A stretch of DNA of 64,000 bases from Ischnura elegans (taxonomy: Eukaryota; Arthropoda; Insecta; Odonata; Coenagrionidae), in assembly GCF_921293095.1 (NCBI RefSeq), contig NC_060256.1:88381851-88445850 (forward strand). Direction: 5' to 3'. The notes beneath the pieces were generated by a model that had not been told where the DNA came from, made no database searches, and saw nothing but the letters and a program-made list of their open reading frames with translations. Below, in pieces: positions 8,577 to 53,251 of the stretch; the first letter of the stretch is position 1, and each line of letters begins with the position of its first letter. Made by a program: the position numbers and the translations under genes.

Positions 8577-9243
8577 AATAGGGTGCTTTCCTGTAATTAT
8601 TTTATTGCCTAAATCGAAACACTATTACTCCTGGAGTACGTATTTCAAGCTTTTCGATTTTTTAATGACGATATCTATTTTTCGCTATTGAACGAAAAAT
8701 GAAAATTTTCAAGCGCGCGAAAACGCAACGGCTAAGAATGAATGCTGGGAAAACTCCATGTGACGTCGTTCTGGTTCCCGCTGCCGCAAGTGAGGTGACC
8801 TTGAGGCGAGGCTTTGAGCGCTGATACGACGCAGGATGCTAGCAGGTAGCAGAGTACCCTGCTAGCTGGTAGCGCTTGGCTTAAATAAGGATTATTAATA
8901 CCTTATCAAACGAAGGAAACTTTCTGAACTTAGGTATTTTTAATGTGTGATTATTAAGACATGTTTCCCTGAGCTCTGTGCGTCATGCATGCATTGGTAA
9001 TCTCAGACGATGTAAAACTCATATCTACTCGTATAGAAACTAGGTCCCTGTGATGTCACGTGGAGTGGCATCGCATGGGCGCCAATCTGGCCTTTTTCAA
9101 ATGAGGATAAAATTGACCATTGCCATTCGTCTAAACCGGTATTTTTAAAACCAAATAATTTGTATATTATGAATACACAATTGGTGGGTAACGAATCGCA
9201 ATCGATGCCTTTCGTTTTCTTTGATGAAGGAAACTATCTTATT
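8577..9243 (+). mobile_element. MITE family A, full-length copy inside a Penelope-like remnant
   Basis: ~667 bp running from AATAGGGTGCTTTCCTG to GGAAACTATCTTATT (family termini AATAGGGTGGTTTCCT / AGGAAACTACCCTATT). Internal landmarks shared with the other copies are GCTAGCAGGTAGC, the CRE-like box (mutated here to TGATGTCACGTG at 9051) and AACCAAATAATTTGTATATT. There is no ORF; it is presumably mobilised in trans by a DNA transposase not present here. Confidence 0.9.
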
Positions 9244-17000: not shown

Positions 17001-20000
17001 CCCACCAGATAACAGAAGCTACCATTATAATTTCACTGTTATTAAGTCCTAAAACTAGAGTAGGATGCACATTAACACTTTCACCATGATCATAAAAACA
17101 TTAATTCACTGCACAACTGTATCTAATAGGAATGAAATAATACAAGTTTTCAATTCGTGGTGGAGCGATATTTTTCCTCCTCTTTCTGTACTGACACAAA
17201 ATTCTTCACTAAATATCTAAAGACATCAACTAATTGCAAAGCGAGCTACGAAACCACCGAGGTTATACAATAGTAATTAAGTACAATAACACAATTAGTA
17301 AAAACTGATGGAACTATGCCTCCACGGCAACGTGGCATGATATTATTTCGGTATTATGTGAAAAACATGAACCATTGAATTCCCGCGAAGATAAAAATAA
17401 AAAGTTCCGTAAATAAATGAGGAAGGCTAGTGAATAAATATCGCATGCTTTGCCATATCCTCTTTAAAAACAAGAGAAAGGGCATGCATGGAAGAGTAAA
17501 CACAGCCGCCATTGCAGATACTGCAGTATTTCCGCTATCTATTTGCACCGCTAATTTATTCTTAGCGAATAACACATTTTCAACTAGAAAACGAGGTCAC
17601 TGAGATCTAAAACCATGAAAAAATTGCCAAATTAACGATAACAGAGCCATAAAACTAACATCGGTAACCCACCGCATTTTGAGTACTTACCACTGCTTTG
17701 AAAAAACTTTTATTTTCAGCTCAGCATTCCTTCCTGGTTTTCCTGTATCTTGTAGAATTATTAGACACATATCAAAAGCGCGATGCACTAACCATCTTCA
17801 AATTTAATAGCTTTTTAGCAATATAGCACATCTTCCAAGTGATGAGCTTCACTGGTTCACCATTGAAATGAATGAAACAGCAACGCGATACTGGACGCGC
17901 GACAGGCTCGCAGCGCCACTCTGTAACGAACTAAAAAAATTGAATAACGTGGGAGGATTTTGGGGCCAGCCAACCAGCGGCGTAACAGCTGAGTTGGAGG
18001 GGGCTGAGTACGAATTTCACACTTTTAGATTTTTAAATGATGATATCTATTATTTGCGATTAAATGAAAAGTGAAACATTTCAAGCGCGCGAAAACGCGA
18101 CGGCTAAGTATGAATGCTGGGAAAATCCCATGTGACGTCATTCTGGTTCCCACTGTCGCAAAGTGAGGTGACCTTGGGGCGAGGGTGTGTGCGCCGCTGA
18201 GATGCAGGCTGCTAGCAGGTAGCGCTTGGCTTAAATAAGGATTATTAATACCCTATCATACGAAGGAAACTTTCCGACCGTAGGCAGTTTTAATAGGTGA
18301 TTTTTATGACATGTTTCCTTGAGCTCTGTGCCTCATGCATGCAATGGTAATCTCAGACGATGTAAAACTCCTATCCTCTCGTGTAGAAACTAGGTCCCTG
18401 TGACGTCACGTGGAGTGGAATCGCATGGACGCCAAACTGGCCTTTTTCAAATGCAGTTAAAATTGACCATTGCCATTGGTCTAAACTGGGATTTTGAAAA
18501 CCAAATAATTTGTATATTATGAATACACTAATGGTGGGTGACGAATCGCAATTAATGCCCTTCATTTATCTTTGATGAAGGAAACTACCCTATTAAGGGA
18601 CAGGGTAGTGTTAGAATAACTAAGGATTTGAAAAATAGTCTTCCATGTTCTGAAATTGAGATTGTCGCGGCTCCAGCGACCTCCGGAGGTGGGAGGGAGA
18701 CCCACCCTGGCACACGGGATCGGGTAATCATGGTGGAAGGAAAAACTTGTTGAGGTAAAGTTTAAAACACCCGGGGGTGCGTTTATTGGTTTCTTTCCCC
18801 TACAAGATTGAGTGCAAAGGTGGGTGGCGAGGTCCGCGGCGCGGCTGCTGCTTCCACGGGGCTGGGGCTGGATCTGTCCAGAATGGCCTCTCTGTGGATC
18901 CACAACAGCTCTGATGGGGGTTCCGGCATTGGCGGCGGGTCCACGAGCCGCAGGTGGGATGGCAGCATCAGTGATCACCGGCCACATGCTCCGTCTCTGC
19001 TCCGATCGTCTGGTTCTGCGGGTGGCTTCTGGCTGCGGTGTGTCCAGGGCATCCGGCCGAAGTAGAGGACGAAACGTCTAAACCCATAGGGAAGAATGAC
19101 CAATGAGGGTGTGAATCGGCTTCTTTCCCTAAGGCTCCCTCAGAGCAGGGGGCGAAACGTCTAAACCATCAGGGGAGAATCACCAACGAGGGTGTCAATC
19201 GGTTTCGTTTCCTAAGGATTCCTCCTCCACACTCCTCTGTATGGTCCTGGGCACTGGGCTTCATACCGGATCCTGGCTGCCCTACGGCCAGTGAGGTTGA
19301 TCCGCTAGGCAACGTGGTGTGAGGGGAGGTTCGGTGCCGGGGTGGGAGAAAGTCACGTCGTTTGAGGGGAAGTATGGCGCGTGGACTGTGAGGGGAACGT
19401 TCGGCACGGGAGTGGGGGAAGTCACGTGGTGGCGCGTGTTCCGAAGTGGGTTTTGCCCATGGTACGTTGAAGCGCAACAAGATTCCTGCAGTTACTTTTA
19501 CAGCTTTTTTTGCAAAGAGAAAGGTTTGCTAGCCTGGGGAGGCTTTACCCCAGGCGATAATACCATATGTAAGTTAGGACTGAATTTTAGCAAAATACAA
19601 TAATTTTAAGTATCGCTGGGTGATAATTGAAGTGAATCTTCTAATCATAAATAGTCCAGTTGCCACTCTACTGAGCATCTCCACTCTATGTTTGTGGTGG
19701 TAGGTATCAGCCTCATCAAATTGCCTTGGAAATCAAGAAACCTAGATAACCGAAAGAAAAGTACTTAAATAGCTTAGCATGAGCTGTGGACCACCATTCA
19801 CAGTGCATGCATCGCATTGCTCCCCTAGTAACTTGGTAACTTTGCTGTGTTTTGGGAGAATAATCTGGTGTTTTTCAACATATGAAGAGTAGAATAATGC
19901 AAGCCACCTTCTACCCTAAGTAGTCCATTCTACAGTGAATTAATTGTGGCAGCAGTGTGCTCTTAGCAAGAACTAACAACCCGTGGTATGTTTACCAATT

Positions 20001-23000
20001 TGTTTGTTGTTGAAAATTTTCACTGTCATCTTGTGACAAAAAGGCATGTCATTTGGTCTCATTTTGGTTGGAATCATATATCCTCTACAGCTATTTCCAC
20101 TTGATTGCCTTAGCCCGATTTTGTAACGGACACATTCAGAGGAAGTGAGTGCCCAGAGCACTTCCACAACAGCCGCGGAATTTCTCCATGAATGTGACCA
20201 CTAGGTAGCAGTTCAATGTCAGCCGCTCAGTCATTTCTTGGTGCAGTTTTTTAAGCCACTACTTGTACCAGGGAGGGGGGCCTTAAAATAAACGGACGAT
20301 ATTTTTAAAATTTATTTTTTCAGCTCGCAAATGTTAACTGCCTTTTAAGTGCTCTCCATTAACACTGATACATTGGTTGAAACATTTTTTCCACTGCAAG
20401 GAACACCTTTGGTACTCGTCCTATCTGATGCCTGGCAGTGCTGCCTTTGATTCTATTTTTACCTCTGGAATGTCATCAAAACATTTCCCTTTCATCACCC
20501 TTTTCATTTGCAAATCTTCCGTTAAAATGCACTGCACAGAACTCCATGAAAGACTAGACTGTTCAGCAAGTTCATCAACAGTATGCCTCCTATCCTCGTA
20601 CACAAGGGCATGAATTTTTTTCACGTTTTCATCAGTTTTGGGCATGGAAGGCTGGCCCAGGCCTCGAAAATCTTTGATTGGCATGTTGCTACATTTGAAA
20701 CATGAATAGCCCTCGTACACCTGAGTTTTTTTCAAGGTGTGTTCTTTGTAAGCTGTGGACAAAATATCAACCACCTCCAATGCACTTTTATCAAGTATGA
20801 GAATCCTTAACTATAAGAGTAACATGTGCAGCGATTGCCATCCAGTCATTTTTGGGTCCCCCCTCGTATGAGCACTTGTCCCTGATTGGTGGAAGCTAAA
20901 ATGTTAGTTGTAGGTGGCCAATAGTATGTTGCTATAAGATTCAAAAGCCCCCATAAGGATCCACTCAGCTTTTTCCAATCAGCGATGCTATATACTATTT
21001 AGTAGACCTCTCCAATGGTGCGCAAGACCTCTGAGCCCTCACTCCCTGTGATAGCATTCAATAATTCATGCTTTGTTTCTTCCAGGCCATGCCAACCATG
21101 ACAGCAAACAGCAGTTCTTCTGGAATATACTCGAGCCGCAACTCGGATGCATTCCGCCCTCCCCCACACGTCATTCCGGTGCCCCAGTTCCCACGGCTGC
21201 CCCAGCACCAGCTGTTTGCCCCCGTGAGTGGAGGGGGGCCTATCCCGAGTGGGGGAGGGCCCCCCTCCCTTCTGCCCCCTCCCTTCCTCTTCACCCCTCA
21301 CCACCCATCCTCCCTCCCCAGTCAGGCGTACCCTCCGCACGAGAGGAGCAGCCGAGCTCATTCAAGGTAATTGACGACACTCACTCACCAGGATCCTTTC
21401 GAAGGAGTTACTCCCTCTGTACCCTTTAACAAAGCGCGGAGCACGTCAATTGATGTGGTCCCGTCCAAGCCGAGATACGGAGCAGGTCAATTGATTGGCC
21501 TTTCTCCACCTCAGTATGTGACTAATATCCACTTCTGAATCTTCCGATCGTGTTCATGACCTTCAGCAAGCTTTCCTCTTTCGAACCGTGTGCACAGTTT
21601 GTAAATAGAAGTACATATTTGAATGGAAGTTATGGCACGAAAACCTCTTCTCTATTTTTCTTTCTTATTGTATCGGCCGATGCTGACGACTTCCGTGAAA
21701 ATCTGGCCTGCATTGAATGTGTTAAGGGCCTATCGCACTAGTAACTGTAATTGCGGCTGCGACTGCACACCATCACACATTGCGGTTGACGCCATGATAG
21801 CGCATGTGCACGTATGAATGTTTCTGCTTGTAGCTTTTTTGTTTACTAAATCCCAAAGAATGGATTAAGAGCAGCAATTGTTGAAATTAAGGCAGCTCGA
21901 CTGGCATCATAATACATATGTAGGAAGTTTTCGGTAGCATTTTTTGTGCTGGTTCTTGGTTTTTATCGCTCAAGATTTTCTGATCAAACTGCATTGGTGA
22001 GGCATTGGATTGCTCGGTGAAAAAAACATGGTGTACACGATAACCTTTTTTATGGAACTAGCATTGGAAGATCCGCTAAAAACAAACACGTCTGCCGTAA
22101 GCGTGCGAGATTCAAATGGAGCTCTGATTGGCTACGACTGCGCTTCGGAAGAATAGCCGGTCGGTTATACCATTCGTAGCATTGTCTGCCTCGCTCTGAT
22201 TGGTCGACGGGTCAGTCGCTAGTGTGTACGGTACCTTTAGATGCATTGTCCTTGTTCTCCACCAAGCAATTGATGCACAACTATTATTTGTTGTTGTGCA
22301 TTCAAGCATGGGCCGAAACCAAAGCCAAAATATTTATCCTAAAATAAGTAAGTAAGTTTAAATTTTTGAGCTTGAGCTTTTAATCACTGCATATCAATTT
22401 TTTTACAGAAAAAAAATCATGTTTATTGTCATTTATGAGGCTAAGTGATGAGTACTATAATAATCATGGAAGCATGTAGATGAACTTCATTCTTCACTCT
22501 CACTTCAATGGTATTAACACATTCAATGCGGGCCCAATTTTCATTGAAGTCGTCAAAATCGGCCGTTGGAATAAGAAAGAAAAATAGAGGGAGGTTTCAG
22601 CACCATAACTTCCGTTCAAATACTGCTTTTTACAACCGGGCACACGGTTCGAAAGAGGGAAGCTTGCTGAAGGCCATACACACGATTGAAGGACTCGGAA
22701 GTGGATATTAGTCATGTATGGAGGCGGAGAAAGGGCTACCGGCCCGACTGGCAGAGCAAGTCAATTGACGTGCTCCGTATCATGGATTGGATGAGACAGG
22801 GTTCCTACTTTAACTACATTACAGTGGAACCTCGTTAAAGCGAGTACGGGCTATAGCGACACCCCCGCTATAACGAGAGATAGCCGATGCACCGTCAATT
22901 GACCCTATAATAAGCGTGTTAAAAAATTCGTTTTTACGAGACCCTTTCGGCGTTGGCTCTCGCCATAGCGAGGGTTTCACCGCCGGAAGACTTTCATCAA

Positions 23001-26000
23001 GACTCCTTAACCTCTGTAATTGCTAGCGATCTGTTAGAAATGAAGTTAATGGAGTGCTCAGTCTCAAATTTATGTGGTAAACTGTCGTTCGATAAATATA
23101 ATGATTGACGAAATAATGCTTTGCACGATTTATATTCAGTGCGGTGCTTATAAATTGTTTGAATAGTCAGTCGTTATTTGAGTAAGGAAATTTAGTGATG
23201 CAAAAAAACATCGCCTTTCGTCTGGATTTATGCTTACGTTTATCGGATAGATGTTTATCTGTCGCCGCACCACTCCTGTTCCTGTATATCTGTTCGCAAC
23301 AGGTATATTGGCTATTATTTGCTCCACCTCCGGTAAAGCGACAATTCGCTATAGCGAGTGTTTATTAGTGTACCGTGGGGTGTCGTTATATCGAGGTTGC
23401 ACTGTATAAAATTCACGTTTTTTTCCAGGTTTTCACGGTCTAAATGTCTTCAAATTCATGGTTTGTAGATAAACCATTTTAGGCGGAAATATTGATCACG
23501 TAACAATCGTCGGCCGCACTTTAACAACAAATTTAACAAAAGCGATAGACACCGTGAATGCAAACGCAGCAATGAAAGTGCTCTCTCTCCTGACGTCACA
23601 TATCGTTTGCAAAATTCAGCTCCGGCAAAAGGTTGTGAGTGGGAAAATAGAGGGACCAGGGTGCCAAGGAAATTAAGAAGTGTCTGAATTTTCGCAAGTG
23701 TTAATGAACGCTTTGGTTGCCAGTCTTCCGACTTTGGCACAGGCTTAAGGTCAATGTGTCATCATGGCACACGGACCAATACTTGCGCTTCAAATATAAG
23801 TGTCCAGATAGATCCGTGACCATGTCTGCGCGTGACTGACCTTGAAATATGATCAAAATATCCATTTTTCTTTTAATCTGTCTCTTGTAGTTATACGATG
23901 GTAAAATCAAGATTGAGATATGTTTAGGGCTTTATGACGAAATTCACTGCTATTTCCAGATTTTTTCACGGTATACGAAATTTACGGTTTATTCACGGTT
24001 TTCAAGGTTGGGTTGGAACCTTGTGGGACCACGTCAATTGAAGTGCTCTGCACTGAATGTGTTAATACAATTTTGTTGTCAAAAACATTTTTTTTTAATT
24101 GGGTGCATTGCAGCTGCAGCACTGAGCAGGTGCCATTTTAGTGAGCGTAGAAACACTAGGCTCACTTCCAATCCTCACGGAGCAAAAAATTGCTTTGCCC
24201 TCATGCCTTTATAGCCAATGTATAGCAGTTTTCACACCATTCAGCTTTTATTTTATGGAAAAAACACCTACTTAGTGTAAATGAAATAGATTATTTGACT
24301 TAGCGAAGGCTCCTTGTCAGACCGAAAGCCACAATTAATTGAAAGAATTCCATGGAAGGAACACTCCGAGTATTTTCTTAACTGGCGGAATTTATGATTT
24401 TTAATTAGCTAATGTCAAATTGTGTGCAATTCCTCTTCTCTCACTCTTTACCATTTTTCATGGTGAACTTAATGTTAAATTTGACCCCTTTGCACTGAAT
24501 GTATTGGGTATAGCCGACAAGCATTTTTGTACACAGAAGACCTTATGTTAGGTATAGCTGTCGTGGATTTTTCATCGCAAAAGACTGGTCGTGGGCTGTA
24601 GCCGACACAGGGGAAGGGAAGTGACCACTGAGGTAGCAATTGTCGGATGCATTCAGGCCCGGCCTGAGACCCAGCTTAGGGAGACCTTAGGGCCACTCCT
24701 CGGCAGTTAAGCCTGATCCTCCCACTCATTTATGATCATCCTCGCTGCAGATATCCATAGTGAAGTGGTTATATAGTCATTAGTTTTTGCAATAGTACAT
24801 TTTATTGCGTACTACAATTTTTTTATACTTTGAAATAAATTTTTCATTTTGTTCTGTGCGTAGGCAATTATTAGATAAAATTTCAGCATCACAAATAACG
24901 GACTTCTGGACTTATAGTCTTAGTATATTGTGTTCGCAAAATTCATTGTTATTAACGCTAGAAATCCTTTTAAAATTGTACAATGATTTTAAAATGTTTG
25001 TAATTGTTATAGAAGAGTAAATTATTGATAATCAAATGCTATACATATTTGGTTATAAAAAAACACTGGTAATGCAATAAGTTGACCATGGACTCGTGCC
25101 AAGATAGGGTAGGTTAGGGTTAGAGGATATAGTCCAGTGGGCAGGGTAAGGGCCGGGTGCCCTGTTTACTTGGGTCCCAAATCGGAGGGGTGAGAATACC
25201 AAGGTAGCTCCACCCCAAAAAAGAGCTCCGTACAGAAAGTTTAAAAATATTATTATGCTAATTGAAGTATGGAAAACGCATTCCTCTTGTGAGCGATGGC
25301 AGATAAGCGTTAATACCTTTCTTTCTGTGCTTCCAGTGCCTCTCTATTTGGAACCCCTGGTAGTAATTATCCAACTATGCCTCCTGTTGGTGTCAATAAT
25401 CCTGATTCTACCAATTACGCTGAACAAGGTTGCTACAGTCTACCTGTAACAACTGCTGCTTGTTCGGAGACTCAAATTCAGGTGAGTGTATTGCGCCGGA
25501 TTTTCTTCGCCTGCTCATTGCTTTTGTTCAGTTTGGTCACTCATCCACCAATTCCATCCATCCAGGAATAAACTTCCACTGAGGAGAAAATTCTACTGAG
25601 GAAAATTAACTTTATTTGGCCATTTTTTGCCCCTTGATCTACCAAAGCGTTCTACCACTTGAACTACTGAAGCATCAACCTCCTCTGTGAAATTTTGAAG
25701 GCCTTATTATTTTTTTAATGAAATTTTAATTAATTCTTCAATGAAATTTTAATTAATTCATGAATGAAATTTTATGGAAGAATATTTCTGAAATACCCTA
25801 CCTTCTATAGGAGTAAAATGTTAACTTTCATTGCAGCAATCCAAATTTTATGCTCCATATGTTGTATTCATCTTTGAATGAAATTTTCAGTTTTAATGCT
25901 TATAAATTAATAAGTTTTTAGAAATGATAACAATGTGGAAACCTTCAGTAATGATATTCCAGGAGTGATTTACTACGTTTTCAAGTAACTTAGGACGGTT

Positions 26001-32000: not shown

Positions 32001-35000
32001 CAGCGTTAACAATTTTCAGCCGTTGGGCAAGAATTTTCATCGGTGTGGATGGCCTAATGTCATACTTATTTGTGACTTCGTCTTCTTCGTGCCACAATAC
32101 ACGGCCATAAAAATATCAAACTTCTCCTCCAAATAAAACAGTCTCAGCTTCTCACCACATTCCAACATCTCTACAAACATATTGAAGAGATCGACTTTGA
32201 AAATAAAGCACGCAATTCAAACAGCGTTGAGATTGATGAGTTCAATAGTGTGGTTTCCTATTATTTTTTTATTGCCTAAATCGAAAGATCATTACTCCTG
32301 GACTACTCAGTTCACGCTCTTAGATTTTCGAATTACGGTATCTATTTTTTGCGATTAATCAAAAAGTGAAAATTTGTAAGCGTGCGGAAACGCGACGGCT
32401 AAGTAGGAATGATGGGAAAAAGTCTGTGTGACGTATTTCTGGTTCCCGCTGCCATCCTGTGAGGTGACCTTGAGGTGAGGCTTGAGCACTGATATGACGC
32501 AGGCTGCTAGCAGGTAGCAGAGTACCCTGCTAGCAGGTAGCGCTTGGCTTAAATATGCATTATTACTACCTTATCAAAGGAAGGAAACTTTCCGACCTTA
32601 GACAATTTTAATAAGTGATTATTAAGAGATGTTTCCCTGAGGTCTGTGCCTTATGCATGCATTGGTAATCTCAGACGATGTAAAACTCCTATCCTCTCGT
32701 GTAGAAACTAGGTCCCTGTGACGTCACGTGGAGTGGAATAGCATGGGTGCCAATCTGCCCTTTTTCAAACTAGGTTAAAATTGACCATTGCCATTCGTCT
32801 AAACCGGTATTTCTAAAACCAAATAATTTGTATATTATGAATACACTAATGGTGGGTAACGAATCGCAATCAATGCCTTTCGTTTTCTTTGATGATGGAA
32901 ACTACCCTATTCCTGCTTAAGGGATGACTTTCATATCTTAAGCAGGAATATTTTATACTTTCAAGAATTTATCCAAGATGCAAACGCAAAAGCTTCTCGT
33001 TAGTTTTGAGATGGCATTGAAATAAACTATGAGAATGAAACAAAATTTAATGCTGAGTCATATGCAAAAGAATTAAGAGAGGCAACTGTTGGCTTTCATG
33101 TTTGAGCACACACATTGCATTTCCAGTGATTAGAAGTTCTCCGAGATGGTGGCGAGTAAAAACAATGCTCATTGGAATTAATACGTTGTATTCCATAAAT
33201 TATCCTCAATAATTGTCAAAAGAATATAATGTAACTCAATTATTCTTCTTAATTGTAAACAATGTTGTTGTCTCTTTTAACTTATTTATTCAACTGCTCT
33301 GTTAACTAGTAAACAACTTTTTCTTACCCTCGACAACCCTCTGCTTATTTATAAACTTCAGCACTGATGTTGTTGATTTAAATTAACATTTCATTAAAAT
33401 AATTACTATTAACTTCAACAGAATTAAATCATGCAACCGTGAGTCAATGCTGTAAGTTGCTGGAAGAATGCCAAAGTGAAAGTTAAGGTTACGATTAATA
33501 ACGACGTTTCTGATTGGCTTGTTCAGTGGAAGTGTCTGATTGCCCCTCCTACGCTATGGATACAAAATTATTCATAGTAATATAGTGTTTAGTTTTAAAT
33601 TGAACTACTCCAAAGAACACGAAAAATACCTACGGATGACACAGTGGTTTAGGCCATAGCTTTCCTTAACTATAACCGTAGGTAAAAATTCATCTGATGT
33701 TGCTCCTAAAATTTATTTTCTCATTTATTCAGAGTGTCACTAATCATTGAAATATAATTTTAGGATGTGTTGCAATTGGACCAGGATTGTGAGCAGAAGA
33801 AATTGAGCATGAGGCTGAGAAGGATAGAAGAGAGGCTGAACAGTTACAAAATATCTGGAGAAACTGAAATGCCAAGAAGTAGCAGGTGAGTAGATGCTTT
33901 GTCCTTGATGCATATTCTTTGGATGTTTATGAGCAGGTCACCATGGTATTATTTCAATGATGATGCATTCATTATTCAAGATGAATCTGTTAATTGTTTG
34001 CAATTATCAAATATTGTAAACGAGTGATTATCCTTGCGCAGATTATAATGCTCGAGTTTCGCCCTCCTTTGAAGTTTTCTGCAATCTTGATTTTAGAAAA
34101 ATAAAATCGGATGCAAAAACACCGGGATTATTGTATGTTAATGCTAGGATTAACAAGTCCTTAATAAATCCATTAGAATTCCCTTGATATCCTCTGAAAA
34201 ATTGAAAATTATGTCAAGAAATTAGTATCTCTCCAATATCTATATAAAAATCTATGTAAAAAAAAACTCTGTAATTGTGACCACTAACTAATTAAGTAAA
34301 TTTCTCATTTTCAGTCTCCAAGAAACTGACTTCAGTTTATCATCTGCCAAAGGTGCTAAAGTACCTCCAAGTGAGGATATCAATCAGAGTGAGTACATAT
34401 ATAATGCTTGAAAGTTTGCATTGTCAACTAGGCCGTTTCTCTGCATAACAAACTGCAGTGTTAATGAAACAATAATGGGTATGTGGTAAAATATTTTACC
34501 TTGCCTCAAAAAAATTTATTTTCATACGGCCATCTTAGGTTTTAAGTTGAACCACACTGAAGAACATGGAAGCTTGTTTTTTGAAAACTTAAGATAGAAA
34601 TGAAATAGGAGTGACTAAATGAATGATACTTGGCACATTTGCTATGGGAAATCAAGAACTTGGATGGCTTAGTGATCTGCGCAGTGGCACGCAATTGCAA
34701 AGTTCCGTGGTCCAGGAAAATTTTTTCCCATGGCAATTAACGTGAACTCCGGCAGAAATGTTTGTTTCAAGACTTACATGAATGGAAAAAACTATTGATT
34801 ATGTTGGTTAGTACATGATTTACCCCAAGGTAGAGGATGAAATAGAATCAAAATTTTGCCCCAATTCAAATGCTCAGGGCAAAATTTCAATTCCATTGAC
34901 TTCAACTGGGCATTTTTGCTGAAAATTTTTAATTTTATATGCAAGCATTGTTTGATCCTGGTAAGTTGTAATAGAGGAAATTTTTTTTTTAGCTTCTTTA

Positions 35001-41000: not shown

Positions 41001-44000
41001 GCGGCTTTTTTGCCACACTTAAATATTTTTGGTTTTTTCCTAAATATACATTAAAATTTTAGGGTATTTTAATGCATTTGGATAAAATTTCTAATATTAA
41101 AAGCACTTTAAATATTTTCTCTTTCATTAAGATTAACAAAAAATAAAGCATATTGGTATGCAAATTTCTTCGTAAAGACTTTGAATATTTTTTCTTAGGG
41201 GTTGCAGACGATTCTTGGTCGAGGAAAAGGCAGCGAAATAGAATACCAAAGTGTACCACCAGTGATCTCCACGCAGTGAAGGCGTTATATCGAATTTTCG
41301 AAAAATGCTGCAAAATCCCCGCTTAGCGTGTATCTAAGGGTTAATGCTAGGATACACTGGGCTTATTAGTTCCGTTAGAATCCTCTTCGTATAACGGAAG
41401 CGATCGCGCTTAAGCTGCATTCACGGGAGTACCGTCCTTCTGTTTTCCAAGCTTCGCAGTGCGCAACCACGCTTCGTGATCACGGATGCACGTCCCGCAG
41501 CAGTTGCAACCCGGGAAACTTATGCGAGAAGCGACTGCGTGGTGTGGTGCCTAACAGAGTAGTTTCCGACGTCGAGCAGTGGTTTTGAAGCGTTTGTGCA
41601 AACCACTTTTCTGTATCCATAGTCACGCAGCCACGGATGTGTGGTTTCTGAAATCAGGCCTTACATGGAGCATTAATAATAAGAGCACAACCATGTTCTC
41701 GCTGCTAAAAAGATCGCGAACTGGCAAAGAAAGCTCTCGATGAGTCCAGGAAGCACTTAAAAATAACAGAATTACTGCATAAATAATAATATTGCTTGTT
41801 TTATGTAAATTATGAACATTGCAAGACATTTCAGTTAAAGTTTGGTTTACCCGTGTTTTCCGATTATTCGAGCCATCCCTTCCCATCATCAGTAAACTGG
41901 AAAAGAATCGATGCGGCTAAGAAATAGCCTAACTCACAGTCAATGCCTTATGTGCTGCAGTTTGCTGTTAAATATCTGCAGGCGAACGATAGACAGCTTC
42001 CTGCCCACCCTATTTTTTGCCGGAATGCCAAGAATCTGGGGAACTAATTTTTTCGTTGGCGTGAAGGGTTCCACAGTGTTGCGCAATGAATGGCTGCATC
42101 TTTTCGGGTTGCCAACCATGTTCGTTGTTTATTTAGACAAGAGAATCGCCTTCATTCCAGGTGGTGTCATCAGGTTATGAAGTGGTGATTATTCGGTGGT
42201 TTGCCCATTGTCTTGGTCACATTTGGCTCCAGGAAATCCCTATATTTCGCGGGAGTTATTTGAGAATTCATCAAAATATCCCAATATCCACTAAGCTTCA
42301 ACCGAAAAGACGGAGATAAGCTCCACAATGTGTGGAAGAGGCAGTTTAAATCCGCAAGCCAATCAGAAGGACAGAAGAAATCAAGCATCAAATGGAACCA
42401 AGATGACGGTCTATATGAGGCAGGCTACCCAGATCTTTACCACTTCATCCTGAAGACGCCTGCTGGAACACAGGGTTAACTGTTGTCATTATAAACAAAA
42501 AACACAGTTGGAAACCCCAGAAGATGCTGCAATTTATTTTTTCATTAATCTTAATTTATATTTATCGCTAATTTTTTTAAATCAATAGGCCTTAACACTA
42601 GCACCGCTGTGTTTTTTCCCATACCTTAAAGTGCCGGGAGAGGTCATTTTAACTGGTAGGTGTTTTCTCTTGTTGTGGTGGTATGTGTAAATAATTTCTT
42701 TCTATTTTGAAGTACGTACATGCTATTATTTCATTTTTAATTCAAATTTATAATGCTTTCAAATAAATAAAAATTTTAAACAATTTAGTTTTCCAACTTG
42801 AACACACTTTGATAGGTAAACTGAGGTAGTCTATGCTATAATTCTGTGATATAACAGCATAGCATAAAAAAATGAGTTGTGTAGAAACATGCAGACAATC
42901 AGTTGTGAATTAAATCTGTAAAAGTGACTGCTACTCATAATGCCAGAAAAAATCTGATTTCAAAGGACTCTAATAATAAGCAGAACATTAATGGTACAGG
43001 TCTTAATGACAGCCCTGGCACTTTTAGGTATAATAGAAACTATTTTATAATTCATGCATAAAATTTTTTGGGATGTAGGTAGTTCTGAGGACGAACATTC
43101 ATTAACAGTCACAAAACATGAGCAATTTTTAACCATCGCGAAGAGGAGACCATTTTAAATTCAAAAAGGGACAAAGTGACTGCCCTTCCAGTGTTAAGAT
43201 GATAAAATAGCACGAGCCTTTCTCTCCCACCTACACTCATCCACCCACCCCTACTTTTTACTCTCCACATTATTGAGTTTGCAGTGTGCCAGATTTGTGA
43301 GCTATTAATTATGTTTTACTTTCATGATTGTATAATTGCTGTCCATTTACTTTTCAGGGGGTAACGTGGGGGTTAGCCAGAAAGAGGAGTGCCTCAATCA
43401 CGACATAGCTCTCTTGAAGGACGATATTCAGAGTCTAAGGATTGAGTTGCAAGGCATGAAAGCAACGCAGAACGCCCCATTAAATCAATCAAACAAGTAT
43501 GCTCTTCTCAGCTCTTCTCCCTTTCCAGTGATATTTTTAACGTAGCACCTCTTTAATCGCACGCCTCACTTGCACCTTGTGTAGTACCTTGTGGCACTAG
43601 ATACATATATTGAATGAACTTTGAAAAATGGGAAAATAAGTGCAGTCATGCCTCAGTTAAACCCTTAGGAAGCTTCTTAACATGTTGCGTACGGATGGGG
43701 AGAATTCTCGTCATTTTTTTCTCGAACGTTCCGGACGGATGACGAAGATTCTCGTCATTTAGGCGCGTCGACCTAAACAATTTAAAGCATACAATACATA
43801 TTCGTTAGTACGTTTTCAGTTGTTGTTCGTCATTCATAATGAATTGATGCATCATCACGTCTGATTGGGTGAAGTTATATTCTAAACATTAGCTTTTTAA
43901 CCATGTTTAAACCAAAGGCATTACGCCCTAATTGGCTCATATTTCCAATCTCAACTCCTCCACACAGAATTGGCATTCCTAGGAATTTAAATACCCCGCT

Positions 44001-50617: not shown

Positions 50618-50855
50618 ATGCCCTAAAGGCCGTTGATGCGTAGTTTTCCGCGGCGTTGTCTAGATGATGTCTCCATGTTCCTGGGCTTCACCGCGTGGAT
50701 TTTTCTTTATGACGACAGTTTCTCCGGTATTCCAACCGGCGTCTTCAGGTCGATGCTGAAGACGCCGGTTGGAATACCGGAGAAACTATCGTCATAAAGA
50801 AAAATCCACGCGGTGAAGCCCAGGAACATGGAGACATCATGCCCTAAAGGCCGTT
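50618..50855. mobile_element. Palindromic Penelope-like/hammerhead-type insertion with 17-bp direct repeats
   Basis: Arms 50664-50748 and 50756-50840 (85 bp each) are inverted copies with a single mismatch, separated by 7 bp. Each arm read outward from the centre starts CTGAAGACGCCGGTTGG and continues CCGGAGAAACT(g/a)TCGTC: CUGANGA box, stem-loop II (CCGG..CCGG), then GAAAC, the hammerhead core order. The whole is bracketed by ATGCCCTAAAGGCCGTT at 50618-50634 and 50839-50855, a likely target duplication. Inverted partial dimers with duplications of this size are known for Penelope-like elements. The stem II closing pair (G-A) is broken, so catalysis may be weak. Confidence 0.8.
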
Positions 50856-51072
50856 CTACACGGGGCACGGAATTGCGCAGGTTAGAGCTGCATTTATTTT
50901 AAAATGGCATGGAATTGCGCGAATGCATGAACGAAATTAGAACAGGGGCTATTTTGCCGTCTCGCATTCTCGCATGTGTTCTGCGTTCACTGCTTTACAC
51001 GATGCAATTTTGATCGCGCCTTCGCACATACGTTGGATTGCACAATTCCGTGTACCGTGTATTACGGCATTA
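50842..51072. mobile_element. MITE family H
   Basis: Imperfect inverted ends: GGCCGTTCTACACGGGGCAC then GGAATTGCGCA on the left, and TTGCACAATTCCGTGTACC then GTGTATTACGGC on the right. ~230 bp, non-coding. The palindromic insertion on its left appears to have used this element's end as target. Confidence 0.65.
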
Positions 51073-51760
51073 ATCTTGGGAATAGCTGTTGTGGATTTTT
51101 CAAGGTAAATGACCGGACATCGGCTCTAGCCAATGCAGGGAAAGGATAGTGATCCCCGAGGTAGCTGTTGTCAGATGCATTTGAGCCCGGCCTTAGACCC
51201 AGCATAGCGAGACCTCAGGGCCACTCCTCGGCAATTAAGCACAGCCCTTCCACCCATTTATGATCATCCTTGCTGCAGGAATCTGTTGTAAAGTGGTTAT
51301 ATTGTCATTGGTTTTGGCAATTATACATTTTTTACACTACATTATACATAATTTTGTTGCTCACTACAATTTTTTATACTTTGGAATAAATTCTTCGATT
51401 TGCTCTGTACATTAGCAATTTTTACGCAAAATTTTAGCGTTACAAATAACATACTTCTGGACATTATAGTCTTCGTACCTAGTGTTCAATAAATTTGTTG
51501 TTATCGATGATAGAAATATATTTAAAGTTCCACAATGCTTAAAAAATGTTTGTAATTCTTACAGAAGAGTAAATTATTGAAAATCAAATGCTATATATTT
51601 GGTTTAAAAAAACACTGGTAAAGCAATCAGTTGACCATTGACTCGTGCCAAGATAGGGTTAGAGGGTTTAGTCCAGTGGGCGGGGTAGGGCCGAGAGCCC
51701 CATCTAATTGGGTCCCAAACCGGAAGGATGAGAATACCAGGGTAACTCCACCCCAAAAAA
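51072..51760 (+). repeat. Dispersed repeat family D, copy 2
   Basis: Co-linear with 24545-25220, ending in the same CTCCACCCCAAAAAA. Its downstream flank GGTTTAAAAT then ATTCTTATGCTA (52220 on) corresponds to AGTTTAAAAATATTATTATG at 25237, showing that the Penelope-like insertion at 51771 split the downstream part of this repeat. Confidence 0.75.
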
Positions 51761-52229
51761 GGTTTAAAATCGTATAAAATCGTATCTGGCTCGATTTTGT
51801 GGAAGTTCTTTATATCCATGATAAAAAGAAGAACACAATGGTAATGGGCTTAAACTAGATTTTATGGAAAAATTCGAAATTGCCAATAGCCCGGTTGGAA
51901 TTTGTAATGATGTTTTATTTTGTACTGACTCTCCTTTGTTAAAATGCATCCCCATCGTCAAAACCCTGACCTTCACTCCAATTCACTCTATGTATGTTTT
52001 CGTCCTTCACTCACTTGTTCACCAAAACCGTTTTCCCCACCCACTCCCCCACACCTAATTCCATATCCCCCCACCTCCTATCTTGGCCTGGGTATATATA
52101 CCGAGAGAGTACTGGATTTTTCACCTTGAAAATGACACTTATGTGTTGAAACCATGGTTGGTTGCCGAGTTGTGACATTAAAAGTGTGGAAATCACCATT
52201 GTGTTCTTCTTTTTATCAAGGTTTAAAAT
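51761..52229 (+). mobile_element. Penelope-like fragment with 10-bp target duplication
   Basis: GGTTTAAAAT is repeated exactly at 51761-51770 and 52220-52229. Inside, a 24-bp perfect inverted pair lies at 51819-51842 (TGATAAAAAGAAGAACAC..) and 52195-52218. Near the right end, 52123-52156 carries CCTTGAAAATGACAC / GTGTTGAAACCATGG, a degenerate CUGANGA - stem - GAAAC arrangement like the Penelope-associated hammerhead motifs. No protein-coding part is recognisable. The inverted end copy again fits Penelope-type insertion. Confidence 0.6.
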
Positions 52230-52595: not shown

Positions 52596-53251
52596 ACAAT
52601 AGGGAGGTTTAATTGCCTTAATCAAAAGATTATTACTCCTGGAGTATGCATTTCACGCTTTTACATTTTTAAATGACGATATCTATTTTTCGCGATTAAA
52701 TGAAAAGTGAAAATTTTCAAGAGCGCAAAAACGCGACTGCTAAGTATGAATGCTGGGAAAAGCCCATGTGACATCGTTCTGGTTCCCGCTGCCGCAAGTG
52801 AGGTGACCTTGGGGCGAGGCTTTGAGCGCTGATACGACACAGGCTGCTAGCAGGTAGCGGAGTACCCTGCTAGCAGGTAGCGCTTGGCTAAAATAAGGAT
52901 TTCTAATACCCTATCAAACGAAGGAAACTTTCCGACCATAGGCAGTTTTAATCGGTGATTATTAAGAGACGTTTCCCTGAGCTCTGTGCCTCATGCATGC
53001 ATTGGTAATCTCAGACAATGTAAAACTCCTATCTACTCGTATAGAAACTAGGTCCCTGTGACGTCACGTGGAGTGGCATCGCATGGGCACCAATCTGGCC
53101 TTTTTCGTATGAGGTTAAAATTGCCCATTGCCATTCGTCTAAACTGGGAATTCTAAAACCAAATAATTTGTATATTATGAATACACTAATGGAGGGTAAC
53201 GAATTGCAATCAATGCCATTCGTTTTCTTTGATGAAGGAAACTACCCTATT
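52596..53251 (+). mobile_element. MITE family A, full-length copy
   Basis: 656 bp from AATAGGGAGGTTTAATTGCC (short deletion in the left end) to GGAAACTACCCTATT. Intact TGACGTCACGTG box at 53059-53070. Very similar to the copies at 32244 and 15288. Confidence 0.93.

Follow-up and report, generated by a model that had tools for sequence, protein, structure and literature searches.

Positions 50618-50855 of the 64,000-nucleotide stretch of Ischnura elegans DNA analyzed here (hereafter, the window) contain a near-perfect palindrome with flanking direct repeats. The 85-nt arms of the palindrome (50664-50748 and 50756-50840) are 99% complementary, with a single mismatch and 7 nt between them, and the direct repeats (50618-50634 and 50839-50855) are 17 nt long and 100% identical; these dimensions, already listed in the first-pass annotation, proved exact in a repeat comparison. 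The palindrome arms do not coincide with the ends of the element. The element itself is 206 bp long (50635-50840) and includes a 29-nt single-copy “tail” (50635-50663), which is found only on the left side, outside the palindrome. The direct repeats are the left and right target-site duplications (TSDs), the left one reading ATGCCCTAAAGGCCGTT. The left TSD ends in GTT, which also agrees with the RNA sequence past the tail, and begins with AT, which is shared with the right end of the element; the true duplication in this copy is thus ~12-17 bp.

The element is a non-autonomous derivative of an endonuclease-bearing, or EN(+), Penelope-like element (PLE); it has no RT or endonuclease coding sequence and carries only the start of the ORF. 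Its tailed half, referred to below as the A cDNA (50635-50755, minus strand), is an antisense copy of the 5' region of the PLE mRNA that spans from the RT start site A (~+122) to the presumed RNA 5' end (CATCGACC, whose C is taken as +0). This half includes the tail (minus strand), which lies between the RT start sites A and B and encodes residues from the beginning of the parental ORF (METSSRQRRGKLRI); the notion of a tail is taken from PMC3846280 and PMC11167929. Further inward lie the parental ORF start codon, the ATG of METSS... (50674-50676, minus strand), and a PLE-type minimal hammerhead motif, CTGAAGA-CGCCGG..CCGG-A-GAAA (50719-50748, minus strand). The spacer GTCGATG (50749-50755) corresponds to the final 7 nt that were copied, at the 5' end of the RNA, and belongs to the left half only. 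The tailless half, or the B cDNA, is identical to the right arm (50756-50840, plus strand) and runs in the sense orientation from +7 to the RT start site B (~+91). It contains a hammerhead motif (50756-50785, plus strand) with the 5' strand of stem I missing at the junction, and the parental ORF start codon (50828-50830, plus strand), which is followed by a few codons and then by target DNA. The presence of CTGAAGACGCCGGTTGGAATACCGGAGAAA on the minus strand at 50719-50748 and on the plus strand at 50756-50785 confirms the earlier observation of a CTGAAGA..GAAA hammerhead-type core in both arms.

The arms match the presumed mRNA 5' end of a PLE, complete with a minimal hammerhead motif, the ORF start, and the tail. 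A long copy (L118) was identified, albeit one broken by stops and frame changes, and was compared in pieces. It consists, in this order, of an inverted tailless pLTR, a pLTR, the ORF start METSSRQRRGKLRIN, the RT, the endonuclease region, and a tailed second pLTR, with the two direct pLTR copies ~2.5 kb apart. The RT piece matches the Pfam domain RVT_1 with an E value of 2.2e-14; a piece of L118 matches an Ischnura elegans protein at 94% over 75% of its length, and 2401 proteins are matched at an E value of 0.001 or better. The RT is presumably of the PLE type, judging from its GIY-YIG partner, the pLTRs, and the motifs. The C-terminal piece shows 42% identity over 146 aa to the protein P0080, across its GIY-YIG domain, with GVY...YIG retained; Pfam gave no match to the C-terminal piece itself even at an E value of 10. 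With its RT, GIY-YIG, and both direct and inverted pLTRs, the parent can be classified, from its sequence, as an EN(+) PLE. As in the window copy, the parental tail codes for residues of the ORF start.

In three copies that read further upstream (L058, L059, and L062), the TATA-box sequence TATATAAG begins 29 nt upstream of CATCGACC; in the latter two, the C terminus of a PLE ORF lies upstream of TATATAAG. The 5' ends of the sampled copies pile up at -2..+4, at TATA distance, which suggests that this is the transcription start. The assignment of +0 as the putative cap site is based on these cDNA ends and on the TATA spacing.

Several other repeats were noticed in the window. A diverged single-orientation relative (75-77% over ~55 nt, sense CATCCTGAAGACGCC...) is found at and around 42449-42501, with TATATGAGG ~34 nt upstream of CATC, and is probably an old PLE pLTR remnant. 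A repeat of ~600-670 bp occurs four times (8577-9243, 18006-18595, 32244-32911, and 52608-53251) with 83-90% identity, and another pair of repeats (24545-25223 and 51073-51761) is 78% identical. A 129-aa open frame at 20421-20810 (minus strand) resembles, by eye, a piece of a mariner-type transposase; similarly, an open frame next to a PLE copy elsewhere in the genome (L078:3582-4229) resembles, by eye, a fragment of a piggyBac-type transposase.

In the parental PLE, the hammerhead motif is located just upstream of the ORF start. Judged by eye, it reads GAC-CTGAAGA-C-GCCGG..CCGGC-GAAAC-T-GTC/GTC, with a 3-bp stem I; the window copy has a C-to-A change at the base of stem II. Similar minimal motifs are present in the loci around the GIY-YIG matches of other PLEs, such as GCC-CTGAGGA-AGGAG..CTCC-GAAAC-GTT/GGC in L123. 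According to PMC6155905, PLE hammerheads are minimal and usually lack helix III. The loose pattern CTGANGA..GAAA is found six times in the window, versus 2.0 expected, and 3 of 100 shuffled sequences also reach 6, so that the hammerhead motif alone is weak evidence. In the covariance-model search proposed as a check in the first-pass annotation, Rfam recognized no hammerhead in the window motif, nor in the ten PLE loci scanned. It was also negative on L122 and L123, although their motifs look clearer by eye; since PLE motifs that look better formed are missed as well, this is a weak test, and its outcome was not counted as evidence. The matches of the window object to Rfam miRNA families only reflect its long hairpin, and RNA folding of the monomer gave no signal (z of -0.65).

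The assembly (1.72 Gb in 110 contigs) was searched with the whole dimer as the query, and 40 places, including the window's own, were scored out of 1640 first-look candidates. The same two-armed object was identified at 39 other places with 92-99% identity, which speaks against a chance palindrome, and each of the 40 loci has its own, unrelated flanks. These 40 dimers were chosen by whole-dimer similarity and say nothing about dimer frequency. Their common outline includes a near-constant tailed left end and a near-constant right end (..GGAGACATCAT). The centers vary from copy to copy: 10 of the 40 read GGTCGACC, without any spacer or loop, and others bear extra bases, usually up to 7. As counted with a longer reference (the one used for the junction table ended at CATCG), 37 of the 40 copies do not extend beyond CATCGACC and 3 read 2-4 nt further. 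In the junction table, the 14-nt gap of L038 is an artifact of a 3-nt arm deletion, and the overlaps of L009, L011, L017, and L018 include a mismatch. Non-consensus changes in these 40 dimers tend to sit in both arms: 17 of them are symmetric, versus 2.6 in permuted pairs, and the arms differ by 26 (in 40 x 67 aligned sites) versus 54.7 in permuted pairs, with none of 10,000 permutations as low. The combination of varying junctions with arms that share variants suggests that each dimer was newly formed from a single kind of template; part of the within-locus similarity of the arms could come from later gene conversion.

TSDs of at least 10 bp flank 38 of the 40 whole dimers and are found in 52 of the 57 rows of the tail sample described below (which here still include L106 and L100), with a mode of 13 in both sets; in 25 of the 40 whole dimers, the TSDs are 13-14 bp long. 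TSD length was taken as the longest common stretch, without a shuffled control, and both this length and the end points of the element vary between copies. In the 87 sites that were chosen for TSDs of at least 10 bp (leaving out L084, which repeats L031, L094, which repeats L021, and L106), the frequencies of A at positions -1 to -4 left of the TSD are 0.48, 0.55, 0.60, and 0.45, and those of T at positions +1 to +4 right of it are 0.40, 0.56, 0.55, and 0.45. These mirrored A-rich and T-rich edges look as if one enzyme cut both strands at like sites, ~13 nt apart. The target of the window copy is the edge of a host MITE-like repeat of ~230 bp (50844-51073), and 39 other copies of this repeat (40 scored out of 2675 candidates) run uninterrupted across the insertion site. 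The host repeat has 33-nt inverted ends (82%).

The tail 20-mer has 672 exact occurrences in the genome, against 0 for the reversed control. The first 68 of these 672 places were examined together with their flanks (one partner search covered one orientation, another covered both), and 58 of them have a head-to-head partner; the other 10 have no partner within 1-1.5 kb on each side. The tailed half starts near +122 and its partner near +91 (85-98; L114 is ambiguous), which places the start sites A and B 31 nt apart, with B upstream. L048 (on contig C1) and L106 (on C2) have 50 nt of left flank in common as well as identical end and junction coordinates, and are probably a duplicated stretch rather than independent insertions. 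Accordingly, L106 was dropped before the counts that follow, as were L100, whose tail continues into an ORF, and L114, whose partner is ambiguous, leaving 55 pairs.

In 44 of these 55 pairs, both halves are short pieces of the RNA 5' end without an ORF (53-262 bp), and most pairs contain two copies of the same region. Within a pair, the two 5' ends vary independently of each other (Spearman 0.07, p of 0.63, n = 49). The tailless half reaches beyond its partner on the 5' side by more than 3 nt in 33 of the 55 pairs and the tailed half does so in 17, with 5 ties; the presumed RNA 5' end (-2..+4) is reached by 24 tailless and 12 tailed halves, and in 46 of the 55 pairs neither half reaches the TATA box. 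Both halves of a locus share variants: in 46 pairs, the difference is 3.6% within loci versus 6.5% between loci, a contrast attained in 0 of 5000 permutations.

The expected ribozyme cut (+42) is passed by 34 of the 55 tailed and 46 of the 55 tailless halves, whose templates, therefore, were uncut, in line with the Anolis data in PMC11167929. Three tailed halves and one tailless half end at +42..+45. A further 9 tailed halves end at +47..+51, a few nucleotides downstream of the expected cut; this exceeds the expectation from a uniform spread, as only 45 of 5000 uniform draws reach that number. This cluster lies in an A-rich run just downstream of the hammerhead and may reflect a pause in that run or the use of cleaved RNA as a template in a minority of cases. 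Ten of the 55 tailless-half ends fall at +32..+38, next to stem II, and may represent RT pauses.

The pairing was also examined independently of the tail, using the first 100 of the 884 genomic occurrences of a 27-mer, along with 70 of the 672 tail matches. Among these, 28 pairs of 27-mers are adjacent within 1 kb, and all 28 are head to head, with none in tandem. Exactly one exact tail is present in 19 of the 28 pairs and two are present in none; inspection of the sequences of the other 9 pairs showed that each of them also combines one tailed and one tailless half. The other 44 27-mers stand alone, with no further 27-mer less than 1 kb away; 7 of them have an opposite-strand tail nearby and 37 have none. 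Ten solitary loci were inspected (427 bp each), of which 4 have a partner (in L139 it covers only +3..+24) and 6 contain a single half. Three of these, L141, L145, and L147, are short, tailless, and partnerless in the 427 bp examined, and could have lost their partners, have distant partners, or come from single-strand events. Thus, single halves, or halves with lost or distant partners, do exist. Longer PLE insertions show the same geometry, as all 16 neighbor pairs of GIY-YIG matches within 8 kb (149 matches; 150 scored out of 2199 candidates) are head to head; these pairs were pooled regardless of the PLE family, and two with the same 2862-bp spacing may be one duplicated locus.

The palindrome is very probably a non-coding insertion made by an EN(+) PLE enzyme through priming on both strands, with two start sites and head-to-head joining of the cDNAs. 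The PLE endonuclease would cut both target strands ~13 bp apart at similar T-rich sites, and each exposed 3' end would be extended on PLE mRNA. Site A, on the distal side of the tail, would give rise to one cDNA and site B, located 31 nt upstream, to the other. The transcript would start 29 nt downstream of the TATA box, and both cDNAs would extend toward its 5' end, passing, in the window copy, through the hammerhead motif. Head-to-head joining of the cDNA ends would rely on microhomology or add a few bases, and filling of the gaps would then produce the TSD. A single start of each kind per target, in head-to-head arrangement, is what is expected if both strands are primed in one event. In PMC11167929, the Anolis PLE protein, a predicted dimer, cuts both strands and extends them, with reverse transcription beginning at two adjacent internal sites on either side of the tail. 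Against the proposed scheme, this protein showed no strand difference in the start site in vitro. A literature search for both-strand priming by PLEs with inverted products found no account beyond PMC3846280 and PMC11167929.

A more specific version of this mechanism can be put forward tentatively, with somewhat less than even confidence. A pair of PLE enzymes would load as a convoy onto one RNA molecule, at sites separated by 31 nt, and each enzyme would use a different strand of the same 13-bp staggered cut as its primer; the B cDNA would lead and the A cDNA would follow, displacing it. On this view, EN(+) PLE integration would regularly yield head-to-head double insertions, full-length copies would result when one cDNA continues to a distant pLTR, and insertions could be timed by comparing the arms of each pair. 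The reach of the halves toward the 5' end (33 versus 17, p of 0.03, and 24 versus 12, p of 0.02) weakly suggests that the cDNA from site B precedes the one from site A. One RNA carrying two polymerases would be favored by the rule of one half of each kind and by the shared variants.

The last step could also have proceeded on two RNAs from the same source locus, one per enzyme subunit, with both strands primed. This variant, which is possible though rather unlikely, accommodates the double copying of the same region in most pairs, the shared variants, which require only the same source, and the dimer predicted for the Anolis protein in PMC11167929. However, it predicts tailed-tailed and tailless-tailless pairs, of which there are none among the 28. 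Self-priming, in which one strand bends back on itself at the junction and serves as its own template (either the first cDNA or, as proposed for the rotifer Penelope, the antisense RNA), is how PMC3846280 interpreted palindromes at inverted junctions, and it would fit the many near-palindromic junctions and the variants shared by the halves of a locus. Self-copying should reproduce the tail, whereas each of the 28 pairs contains a tailless half; it should also leave the second half nested in the first, which is not seen as a rule. At 22 of 46 direct junctions, more than 10 nt of 5' sequence in the tailless half are absent from the tailed half, so that the tailless half could not have been copied from it unless a one-sided deletion followed. 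A fold-back primer cannot directly give rise to the loopless GGTCGACC center found in 10 of the 40 dimers. Later deletions in the center of a palindrome might shift the 5' ends but would not regularly remove the tail at site B. We consider self-priming very unlikely.

Propagation of the inverted dimer as a mobile, ribozyme-bearing, retrozyme-like unit, transcribed and copied as a dimer, appears even less probable. It would be in keeping with the many copies that are up to 99% identical to the window's, with the hammerhead motif in both arms, and with the 9 tailed-half ends near the expected ribozyme cut, but the junctions differ among copies, the halves are truncated independently, most pairs do not reach the TATA box, most halves of either kind run past the expected cut, and the adjacent pairs are inverted rather than tandem. 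Thus, of the “tiny inverted-dimer retroelement” proposed in the first-pass annotation, the retro-insertion with TSDs and without any protein stands, and spread as a dimer is unsupported; similarly, its Penelope/retrozyme theme is upheld for Penelope by the PLE parent, and retrozyme-like propagation is unsupported, as the pairs are inverted and the dimers formed anew. Near-perfect inverted arms flanked by direct repeats would also be expected of a miniature DNA transposon (a MITE or foldback element) with terminal inverted repeats. Here, the arms are not terminal, owing to the 29-nt tail on one side only, the TSD length and end points vary between copies, the arms match the PLE 5' end region, and no transposase-bearing relative with the same arms as terminal repeats was seen, so that we give this explanation almost no credence. 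Perfect palindromes are also a known class of artifacts, and the first-pass annotation had considered that long reads might reveal an assembly chimera. An assembly chimera or a sequencing fold-back is hardly conceivable at 40 loci with distinct flanks, 38 of them with a duplication around the whole palindrome, and with 39 other copies of the target repeat uninterrupted across the site.

The twin-priming inversions of L1 elements also contain two cDNAs from opposite target strands, in inverted orientation and with TSDs. The second priming site of L1 is variable, and its two cDNAs come from different portions of the RNA; here, by contrast, neither start site varies and the two cDNAs largely represent one and the same portion. 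Inverted pLTRs are found in Pen2a of Adineta vaga and other EN(+) PLEs described in PMC3846280. Compared with those elements, most of the sampled Ischnura pairs are short pieces of the RNA 5' end without an ORF, the TSD mode is 13 rather than 8-10, and the copy number in Ischnura allows statistics. The Poseidon element of Anolis carolinensis (PAc), as presented in PMC11167929, is similar in several respects: reverse transcription starts at two internal sites, one on each side of the tail and close to the ORF start; both strands of an AT-rich target are cut and extended; and the hammerhead lies at the pLTR/ORF junction, with uncleaved RNA as the main template. That work maps the starts for each strand separately; the genomic copies studied here show a tailed and a tailless half paired at one and the same target. 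Animal retrozymes with type I hammerheads are also small non-coding retroelements with a hammerhead motif, but PMC7229834 describes them as tandem repeats of ~300 bp with circular RNAs, whereas the Ischnura objects are inverted pairs: direct tandem repeats were not found in any of the 28 adjacent pairs.

The findings bear on how Penelope elements insert and why their inverted pLTRs carry a tail on one side. PMC3846280 favored self-priming and asked for tests, and PMC11167929 left open the steps that follow the extension of both strands. The mini-dimers are a natural insertion record that holds both cDNA starts, both ends, the junction, and the TSD within ~200 bp. They argue against simple self-priming, hint at the position of the RNA start, and set a strict rule to be explained, namely, the combination of a tailed with a tailless half in all 28 pairs. 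The arms of a dimer were presumably identical at its formation and could be used to date each insertion. On its own, the object in the window is modest, a mini-insertion of a known class of elements; it is the population of such objects that makes the PLE integration mechanism readable.
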